64,000 nucleotides of DNA, from contig JAUWBF010000006.1 of assembly GCA_030601755.1 (NCBI GenBank), forward strand, positions 1-64,000. The letters run 5' to 3'. The position numbers and the translations under genes were made by a program. The notes under the pieces were generated by a model. That model was not told where the DNA came from. It was given only the letters and a program-made list of their open reading frames with translations, and made no database searches. Source of the stretch: Verrucomicrobiota bacterium. Its GTDB lineage: Bacteria; Verrucomicrobiota; Verrucomicrobiia; Opitutales; Opitutaceae. Below are positions 1,787-59,403 of this stretch, piece after piece (the stretch's first letter is position 1; each line of letters opens with the position of its first letter).

Positions 1787-4273
1787 TTAGTAGGTGTCGG
1801 CGAGCGAGCGGTGGGTGAGGGCGGCGGCGAGTCTGGCCTTGGTCGTTGGTTCGGCGAGAGTGATGAGCACTTCCTTCTTTTCGTTCGGGTAGAGGTCGAA
1901 GCCGTTGTCGGTCGCGGTGAAAAAGGCGTCGCCGAACTCGAAGGTGAAGGCGTGCTGGAAGACGGGCGATTCCACGGTGATCAGCGCCTGGGTCGGCGTG
2001 AGCAGGCGAAGGGCGGTCTTGGTCCTGGCCTTGGGCAGATCGAGGAAGCGCGGGGGCGATAGGAAGACGGTCTGCTCGCTGGCGAGCGCGCCGTCCACGT
2101 CGAGCGCGATGCGCAGGTAGAGATTGTCGCGACCGTGCGCGGCCATGGGCTTGGCGAGGTCGAGCGTCTTTTGGCGGATGCTTTCGCCGTGGCGCAGGGC
2201 GACGTTTTTTTTGCCGGCGAGGACGATGTCGCCGGCGAGCGTGAAGAGATCCCAGCGGAGCAGTCCCTTGGCGGGTTTGGGCGCGTCGTAAACGGTGAAG
2301 AGGTGGACCTCGCGCACGGTGGTTGCGCGGTAGTTGCCGACGGTGGCGGTCTCGTCGCCGGGCACGTGGGCGGAGACGAGCGCGGGGGCGTTGAAGCGGC
2401 GCGCGGCGTAGTGGAGCGCCTTCCAGCGGCCGGTGTATTCGATCGAGGACCACGAGGCGACGGGCCAGCAATCGTTGAGCTGCCAATAGATCGCGCCCAT
2501 GCAGCGCGGCATGAGGCGGCGGTAGTGCTCGACGCCGACCTGCATGCAGTAGGCCTGGTTGAGTTGCGAGAGCCAGACGAGAGAGTCCTGATCCTTGGGG
2601 AAGCGGTAGCGTCGGGAGACGTAGTCGAGGATGATCTGGTTGCCGGCGCGGTTCTTCTGATGGTTTTCCATCGAGGGTCCGAAGACGTTGTCGTCGCCGG
2701 GCGGGCAGAAGGTGGCGTTGGTCTGCGGCGAAGAGTAGCTCTGCATGCCGAACTCGGAGCAGAAGCGGAACGACCACTTTTCGTAGTCCTTGACCGGCTT
2801 GCGCACATGCCAGACGTCCCAGAAGTGGGTGTCGCCGCGGATTTCGCCGTGCTCGTGGCCGCCGATGAAATTGCCGCGCCACTCGGAGCTCGGCCAGTAG
2901 GGCGTGGCACCGTCGAAGGCGGCCACGGCGGCGGGCAGCAATTCGTGGAAGATCGCGAGGTAGCCAGCCTTGAACTCGGGTTGATCCAAGAGGTGACCGA
3001 GGTTGAGTTGAACGAGTTCGTTGTTGCCGCACCAGAGTGCGAGGCAGGCGCGGTGATGAAGGCGGGCGACCTGTTGCTCGGCCTCGGTTTTTACGCTGGC
3101 AAGAAACGCTTTGTCGGACGGGTAGAGGTTGCAGGCGAACATGAAGTCCTGCCAGACGAGCAGGCCGAGCTCGTCGCACAGGTCATAAAAATCCTCGCTC
3201 TCGTAGATGCCTCCGCCCCACACGCGGATGCAGTTCATGTTGGCGAGCACGGCGGCGTTGAGATCGCGGGCGTAGGCGGCGCGGTCAAGACGCGTGGCGA
3301 AGCTGTCGGCGGGGATCCAGTTGGCGCCCTTGATGAAGACGGGACGGCCGTTGACGAGGAAGCGGAAGGACTCGCCCCACTGGTCGGGCGAACAGTCGAG
3401 CACGATGGTGCGCAGACCGATGCGCTTGGTGATCGTGCCGAGGTCGCGCCCCTGTGCGTCGCGTGCGGTGACGACGAGGTCGTAGAGCGGTTGTTCGCCC
3501 TGGCCGGCGGGCCACCAGAGCTGCGGTGAGGGCACCTCGAAGCCAAGCTCGGAGGTCGTCACCACGCCGCGCCCACCCAGCGAAAGAGTAACCCAATAGG
3601 TTACTCTTTGAGCAGGGCTTTGAAGCTCGGGAGATAGGGATAGGGAGACGTCGCCGTTTTGGTGGTGGGTCTGCGCGACGTGGACGTGCGCCAGGCGGTT
3701 GGTGGTGCGGGCCTCGAGGCGAAGCCCGCGCCAGATGCCGGCGGTGACGAAGCGCGGTCCCCAGTCCCAGCCGAACTGACATTGTTCCTTGCGGATGCGC
3801 ACGCAGCCGCCGCCCTTGGCGTCGTTGAAATTGTTGGGCGGGGTGAAGTCGGTGCGGGTCTTGGCGATGTAGTCCATCGCGCTGCGGAAGTGCACGACGA
3901 GCTCGTTGCGACCGGCGTGGAGGTGCTTCTTCACGTTCCAACGGTGGGCCACGAACATGTTGTCGGTGGTCGCGATCTTTTTGCCGTTGAGCGTGACCGT
4001 GGCGACGGTGTCGAGGCCGTCGGCGCAGAGTTCGACGATGTCTTCGCGCAGTAGCGCGGCGGTGACGGTGAAGGTAGTCTGGTATTCCCAGTCGCGGTTC
4101 TCGATCCATTGCAGGTCGAGTTCGTTGGTGCCGTAGAAGGGATCGGGAATCTTGCCGGCGGCGATGAGGTCGGTGTGCACGCAGCCGGGCACGGTGGCGG
4201 GCAGCCAGGTCTTGGGGGCGGAGGTGTCGCGGAAGCGCCAGCGGGCGGCGGCGAGGTCGAGGATGGTGGGCAT
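1787..4273 (-). CDS. Beta-mannosidase (GH2)
   Basis: An 828-residue GH2 enzyme that releases beta-1,4-linked mannose from the non-reducing end of manno-oligosaccharides. No signal peptide is seen, so it is probably cytoplasmic. The N-terminal jelly-roll (WRFRDTSAPKTWLPATVPG) is followed by an Ig-like domain and a TIM barrel. The acid/base Glu is in WCGNNEL and the nucleophile Glu in RFCSEFGMQS. I start at the ATG at 4273, because the 30 upstream codons are arginine/proline-rich and not family-like. Residues 222-230 (QRVTYWVTL) are encoded by a 27-bp palindrome found four more times in the window, which is an odd in-frame insertion in the Ig-like domain. The gene is divergent from a XylR-type regulator 83 bp away. 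A decayed copy of its 3' end lies near 16.5 kb. Confidence 0.93.
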   Translation of the reverse strand: MPTILDLAAARWRFRDTSAPKTWLPATVPGCVHTDLIAAGKIPDPFYGTNELDLQWIENRDWEYQTTFTVTAALLREDIVELCADGLDTVATVTLNGKKIATTDNMFVAHRWNVKKHLHAGRNELVVHFRSAMDYIAKTRTDFTPPNNFNDAKGGGCVRIRKEQCQFGWDWGPRFVTAGIWRGLRLEARTTNRLAHVHVAQTHHQNGDVSLSLSPELQSPAQRVTYWVTLSLGGRGVVTTSELGFEVPSPQLWWPAGQGEQPLYDLVVTARDAQGRDLGTITKRIGLRTIVLDCSPDQWGESFRFLVNGRPVFIKGANWIPADSFATRLDRAAYARDLNAAVLANMNCIRVWGGGIYESEDFYDLCDELGLLVWQDFMFACNLYPSDKAFLASVKTEAEQQVARLHHRACLALWCGNNELVQLNLGHLLDQPEFKAGYLAIFHELLPAAVAAFDGATPYWPSSEWRGNFIGGHEHGEIRGDTHFWDVWHVRKPVKDYEKWSFRFCSEFGMQSYSSPQTNATFCPPGDDNVFGPSMENHQKNRAGNQIILDYVSRRYRFPKDQDSLVWLSQLNQAYCMQVGVEHYRRLMPRCMGAIYWQLNDCWPVASWSSIEYTGRWKALHYAARRFNAPALVSAHVPGDETATVGNYRATTVREVHLFTVYDAPKPAKGLLRWDLFTLAGDIVLAGKKNVALRHGESIRQKTLDLAKPMAAHGRDNLYLRIALDVDGALASEQTVFLSPPRFLDLPKARTKTALRLLTPTQALITVESPVFQHAFTFEFGDAFFTATDNGFDLYPNEKKEVLITLAEPTTKARLAAALTHRSLADTY
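3583..3609. repeat. 27-bp palindromic element, copy A, inside beta-mannosidase
   Basis: Arms AAAGAGTAACC and GGTTACTCTTT surround a 5-base centre CAATA. The copy lies fully inside the beta-mannosidase coding sequence and is translated in frame. Identical or nearly identical copies lie at 48219, 48276, 50032 and 50089. Confidence 0.9.
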
Positions 4274-42727: not shown

Positions 42728-42771
42728 GTCATGCTTCCGGTCCTCTCCCTGAAGACCTGAACATTCTCCCA

Positions 42772-42803
42772 GGGCGAAGCGCCTCCCGCGCTTCGCCCTT
42801 TTT
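42772..42803 (+). terminator. Rho-independent terminator after RRM gene
   Basis: An 11-bp stem (GGGCGAAGCGC pairing with GCGCTTCGCCC), a 5-base loop, then TTTTT. It lies 45 bp past the RRM stop codon. Confidence 0.9.
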
Positions 42804-48218: not shown

Positions 48219-48245
48219 AAAGAGTAACCCATTAGGTTACTCTTT
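48219..48245. repeat. 27-bp palindromic element, copy B
   Basis: Arms AAAGAGTAACC/GGTTACTCTTT with centre CATTA, which differs by one base from copy A. It is followed by 30 bp and then copy C, forming a double-hairpin unit in the gap between dus and a lipoprotein gene. Confidence 0.9.
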
Positions 48246-48275
48246 GCTTTTCCGCCTCTCCTCTGAAAACGGCCC

Positions 48276-48301
48276 AAGAGTAACCCAATAGGTTACTCTT
48301 T
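48276..48301. repeat. 27-bp palindromic element, copy C
   Basis: Same centre CAATA as copy A; the first base of the left arm is missing. It lies 30 bp after copy B. Confidence 0.9.
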
Positions 48302-50031: not shown

Positions 50032-50057
50032 AAAGAGTAACCTATTGGGTTACTCTT
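50032..50057. repeat. 27-bp palindromic element, copy D (inverted orientation)
   Basis: Arms AAAGAGTAACC and GGTTACTCTT with centre TATTG, the reverse complement of copies A, C and E. It lies 31 bp before copy E, just upstream of the HTH gene. Confidence 0.9.
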
Positions 50058-50088
50058 CGGCAAGGGCGTCCTCAGAGGTAAAACAGGC

Positions 50089-50115
50089 AAAGAGTAACCC
50101 AATAGGTTACTCTTT
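50089..50115. repeat. 27-bp palindromic element, copy E
   Basis: Identical to copy A. Read on the minus strand its left half supplies the last codons and the TAA stop of the sigma factor gene (GGC AAA GAG TAA), so it has replaced or formed the native gene end. Confidence 0.9.
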
Positions 50116-59379: not shown

Positions 59380-59403
59380 CGACTAAGGTGTAAGCCTTAG
59401 TCG
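59380..59403. terminator. Hairpin after the AarF-like gene
   Basis: A 9-bp stem CGACTAAGG/CCTTAGTCG with a 6-base loop, 29 bp past the stop of the AarF-like gene in its direction of transcription. No T-run follows. Confidence 0.55.

Follow-up and report, generated by a model that had tools for sequence, protein, structure and literature searches.

A superfamily of short palindromes that is restricted to the Opitutaceae includes a copy lying in frame within a GH2 beta-mannosidase gene, where, to judge from the alignment of related proteins, it overlies a native strand and adds no amino acids. The account that we favour, with somewhat more than even confidence, is that the family is a non-autonomous, REP/RPE-like repeat, lacking both the GTAG and the CGTC tag, which was inserted and whose sites were then rewritten to the subtype current in each genome. 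Spread would be by insertion, mostly between genes and occasionally in frame into permissive protein loops, as in a TatD gene; the double-stranded palindrome would be recognised by a candidate dimeric protein, as the phasing of paired copies suggests; and occupied sites would be rewritten repeatedly, both arms together, possibly by ectopic conversion or re-insertion. The beta-mannosidase copy would then represent an old rewritten site on a native VTYxVTL beta strand, the codons of which (GTN ACN TAY NNN GTN ACN) already resemble the palindrome core, rather than a fresh in-frame insertion.

The window, i.e. the whole stretch of 64,000 nucleotides that was analysed, holds five copies of the exact 27-bp palindrome AAAGAGTAACCCAATAGGTTACTCTTT at three or fewer mismatches, compared with 0.00 in shuffled sequences (Table 1). 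The first-pass annotation had noted its recurrence near 48.2 and 50.1 kb, which is confirmed, the start positions revealing two pairs; its translation as QRVTYWVTL is likewise correct in the minus-strand reading. The window also contains a separate palindrome with 12-bp arms at 42771-42799 (AGGGCGAAGCGC[CTCCC]GCGCTTCGCCCT) and, between two long minus-strand ORFs, an inverted repeat at 59380-59403 (CGACTAAGG[TGTAAG]CCTTAGTCG).

Table 1. The beta-mannosidase gene and the palindrome copies of the window, with the spacer motifs of the pairs.
Feature	Position	Strand	Evidence
GH2 beta-mannosidase gene, 828 aa	1787..4273	-	translation, Pfam
27-bp palindrome, arms 11, loop 5; coding strand AAAGAGTAACCTATTGGGTTACTCTTT, QRVTYWVTL, residues 222-230	3583..3609		
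Intergenic pair 1, first palindrome, loop CATTA	48219..48245		
Spacer motif CCTCTGAAAA, common to pairs of the AAAGAG subtype	48260..48269	+	
Intergenic pair 1, second palindrome; 56 bp start to start	48275..48301		
Intergenic pair 2, first palindrome, loop TATTG	50032..50058		
Spacer motif CCTCTG within intergenic pair 2	50073..50078	-	
Intergenic pair 2, second palindrome; 57 bp start to start	50089..50115		

Across the source genome (3.55 Mb in 152 contigs, 96% complete), the type found in the window (F1) is present in 38 copies at two or fewer mismatches, 28 of them with exact AGAGTAACC arms, and a sister type, F2 (TGTNACNTAWTNNGTNACA, here mostly TGTCACTTAWTAAGTGACA), in 73-75 copies, while the reversed-pattern control gave 0 for both. 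The 38 F1 copies against none in the control contradict a chance match and bear out the dispersed family that had been proposed. When the search was extended to relatives, F1-like palindromes (AGTAACCN5GGTTACT) were present in 28 of 150 Opitutaceae genomes and F2-like palindromes in 85. The family core reads GTNAC-N-TAWTR-N-GTNAC, and the arms, of ~8-14 bp, vary by species (for example AAAGAGTAACC, AAAGTAACC, AAGTGTCACG and CTTTGTCACG). Among 388 Verrucomicrobiota genomes, the shared core GTNACNTAWTRNGTNAC exceeds the control level in Opitutaceae alone; outside this family it occurs at most once per genome and strand, which equals the control. One carrier genome, a single contig of 5,957,605 bp, is presumably that of Opitutus terrae PB90-1.

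The palindrome had initially been taken for an in-frame insertion in a loop of the beta-mannosidase (Pfam domains PF22666, PF00703, PF17786 and PF17753). This reading fails here because residues 222-230 align without gaps or length change to 29 relatives, because residues 225-232 form a predicted beta strand, and because palindrome-free relatives encode VTYTVTLAL or VTYAVTVSL at this position, in G+C-rich codons. The strand is taken from an AlphaFold model that is modest as a whole (mean pLDDT 66) and was used for residues 225-232 alone, where pLDDT blocks reach 86-90. The occurrence of the same residues in palindrome-free relatives had been named beforehand as an argument against insertion; it applies only in part, since many of the relatives with the residues in question carry a palindrome themselves. 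A plain 27-bp in-frame insertion would explain the exact identity with other copies and the open frame, and it has a proven analogue in TatD, but it could be saved only by an ancestral compensating deletion and is highly improbable at this gene.

What the beta-mannosidase site does record is change between species. A palindrome or decaying palindrome is found there in nine of 30 sequences (nine species), and these nine belong to a single supported clade of 16 rows in the gene tree. The nine site sequences differ yet stay paired in 88.9% of cells, a value that is partly a matter of construction because the rows were chosen for their palindromic look. More weight falls on the compensatory changes: 15 cells have changed on both sides among the nine rows, and the covariation score is 0.437 as compared with 0.153 after shuffling (0/500) and at most 0.096 with the partner slid. 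Coding for VTYxVT is not enough to explain the pairing, since relatives with similar residues and no palindrome are paired at only about half as many positions. Moreover, the subtype at the site tracks the host genome's own repeats (summed best identity 216 versus 188.5 when permuted, fraction 0.00025), a figure weakened by the small number of palindromes per genome and by a test that ignores common ancestry; G092 is the exception, its own repeats ranking fifth of nine. Shared ancestry may inflate both the covariation and the subtype concordance, though the four species of genus g59 differ in subtype, with no single one in common. Similarly, at orthologous intergenic sites of G093 and G059 the core is kept and both arms are changed. 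No base-exact empty site was found in the intergenic spaces of these two genomes, which are too remodelled; one locus of the pair (L260) lacks the palindrome-bearing stretch of the other (L252). At the level of sequence, these comparisons demonstrate that both arms change in concert at orthologous places, toward the genome's current subtype.

Other coding copies fall on both sides of the question of insertion. As far as alignment can tell, a true in-frame insertion is established in at least one gene, TatD, which in the source genome reads FLPPAKSNPIGYSFPKAAV where 25 relatives have an FL-DPRK-like sequence that is ~10 residues shorter; the extra residues are made of the palindrome and are missing from PDB homologues. 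The same loop carries other subtypes in G136, G060 and G137 (CHLISDK, CNLLSYK and KCNQIGY), and no MITE features (terminal inverted repeats or target-site duplication) were evident at TatD by eye. The idea of in-frame coding insertions, with protein lengthening of the RPE type, thus survives for the family through TatD and is lost for the beta-mannosidase. In MetX, ~30 extra residues including CHLISDK lie in a loop, and the linker of a helicase contains F1 in the source genome and F2 in G060. A TrmH-type gene has the palindrome without length change (VTYYVTIP versus VTRxVTIP in relatives), as does a CusA-type pump on VTxxVT, so that RPE-type lengthening is absent from these two as it is from the beta-mannosidase; copies of this sort use the frame R/K/F-V-T-x-x-V-T-L/I.

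The TrmH-type copy (L138 1501-1519, G000:C38:23026) is an imperfect F2 palindrome on VTYYVTIP; L325 and L331, two of its relatives, likewise have YY and show codons similar to the palindrome, most others having RR or RF, as if the TATTA centre imposed residues. Further genes contain two palindromes each. An RsmE-type gene carries two of a third subtype (AAAGTAACCATWATGGTTACTTT; L036 1922 and 2000); they are translated as ESNHNGYF and QSNHNGYF, and the alignment with PDB homologues is poor in this part of the protein. A pabB/trpE-like gene has an in-frame pair (KSNPLGYSSSETPAQKSNPIGY; L025 4497 and 4542), its G060 relative showing an F2-type peptide nearby, and two F2 palindromes occur close to the N terminus in an RlmD-like RNA methyltransferase gene (L134 1501 and 1576; ECNLISDKPP and HCHLISDKSA).

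Neighbouring copies of the family occur as pairs, whose start-to-start distances cluster at 45, 55, 66, 76 and 87 bp. The best period is 10.7 bp (R 0.70, equalled in 0/2000 uniform simulations) for a hand-collected, non-exhaustive set of distances from 19 pair groups in 18 genomes, the two subtypes of the source genome being kept separate. This phasing also holds with each distance counted once per group, and inherited pair units could partly account for it. As the steps correspond to one helix turn, they suggest a protein that binds double-stranded DNA, and it is most likely that the family palindromes are recognised as duplex DNA by a dimeric protein. With regard to placement, only 14 of the 56 source-genome copies examined are intragenic as opposed to 79% of random positions (genes called with a simple codon-usage gene caller), which indicates an intergenic bias. 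Between genes in tandem, copies are closer to the upstream stop than to the start in 23 of 31 cases in the source genome and in 19 of 36 in other genomes. The features of an intrinsic terminator (a G+C-rich stem and then a run of T) were not found, the stem being A+T-rich and ending in CTTT followed mostly by G.

Phasing of this kind is also what would be seen if the palindromes had a function as sites to which a nucleoid or regulatory protein binds, kept by selection and drifting in concert as the specificity of the protein changes, with the coding sites of the beta-mannosidase and TrmH-type genes having arisen where they stand, through point mutations in VTxxVT codons. Taken as a whole, this is a possible but clearly less probable account. 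It would accommodate the compensatory changes seen at a coding site whose position is fixed and the location of the TrmH and CusA copies, which also lie on VTxxVT at constant length, non-palindromic TrmH relatives encoding VTRxVTIP. It is at odds with the identity over all 27 bp, which exceeds usual operator conservation, with the true insertion in TatD, with the proximity of source-genome copies to upstream stops, and with the very patchy distribution of the family. Chromosomal sites such as matS and parS are comparable, being short palindromes that a dimer recognises in duplex form, within genes as well and without length change; in comparison, the present family has longer and more conserved arms, true insertions, a patchy distribution and paired copies.

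With an inserted and rewritten repeat as the preferred reading, the question of its mobiliser arises. Like REPs, the family consists of palindromes of 20-40 bp in many copies, mainly intergenic and often paired. It might represent classical REPs or REPINs, mobilised by a RAYT (Y1 HUH transposase) in the form of single-stranded hairpins, a view that the palindrome size, the predicted hairpins (-9.5 to -14.6 kcal/mol) and the presence of Y1_Tnp genes in 135 of 150 Opitutaceae genomes would all fit. In pairs of the AAAGAG subtype, moreover, the spacer carries CCTCTGAAAA or a sequence close to it, as would be in keeping with such units; no spacer motif is common to all subtypes, CAGAGG being clear in the AAAGAG subtype alone and present in 9 of 33 distinct pairs overall. 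However, the GTAG/GTGG tag is not enriched (21/198 near the core versus 51/198 in the control window), and neither is CGTC (17/198 versus 46/198). None of 33 sampled Y1_Tnp loci (1.8-3.4 kb each; three from the source genome and one from O. terrae) has the palindrome nearby, two carriers of at least 12 copies (G017 and G107, both >90% complete) gave no match to the Y1_Tnp gene family, and the helix phasing points to duplex DNA. Mobilisation by RAYT is disfavoured by the absence of linked loci and tag and by these two carriers, and we consider it unlikely. No mobilising enzyme was found among the Y1_Tnp candidates (33 sampled loci, 150 genomes profiled). One Y1 transposase gene of the source genome (L039 1501-1830, G000:C125:75175) lies at a contig end, downstream of an apparent RHS-type gene and without flanking family palindromes.

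Comparison with described systems helps to place the family. Contrary to the first-pass annotation, which knew of no comparable report for Verrucomicrobiota, REPs inside genes have been published for this phylum: in a survey by the Di Nocera group, O. terrae is reported to have the most intragenic GTAG REPs (PMC3733652, 2013). These are short palindromes, some of them intragenic, that form pairs separated mostly by 20-100 bp of spacer (PMC3733652). The present family resembles them in its short palindromes, spaced pairs, intragenic copies and host family, but is set apart by the lack of a GTAG/GTGG tag, by the failure to find a link to a RAYT gene, by a near-fixed TAWTA centre and by helix-phased pairs. 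The two may nevertheless partly overlap. Rickettsial RPE/CGTC repeats, for which the survey gives no dedicated transposase (PMC3733652), are alike in being present in frame inside protein genes and in having no known transposase; the present family differs in phylum, in lacking the CGTC tag, in replacing rather than lengthening coding sequence at several genes and in having arms rewritten between species. With REPINs it shares a repeated unit of two palindromes and a spacer, conserved in motif in one subtype, whereas no RAYT association was found, the palindromes are near-perfectly symmetric and the pairs follow the helix turn.

The interest of these palindromes is that comparing species at one and the same position in a gene reveals how a repeat is inserted, decays and is rewritten in concert. 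The copies in coding sequence suggest that a dispersed DNA element is able to force its own sequence on a protein gene while leaving the length unaltered. Helix phasing and species-specific subtypes, furthermore, make a binding or mobilising protein searchable. Tentatively, a duplex-binding Opitutaceae protein, be it of the nucleoid or a new kind of transposase, may maintain the helix-phased palindromes genome-wide, a shift in its specificity leading to concerted rewriting that extends to sites inside protein-coding strands without changing protein length. If so, intragenic sites would be rewritten in concert with the specificity shift of the protein that reads them, while the length of the encoded proteins stays constant.
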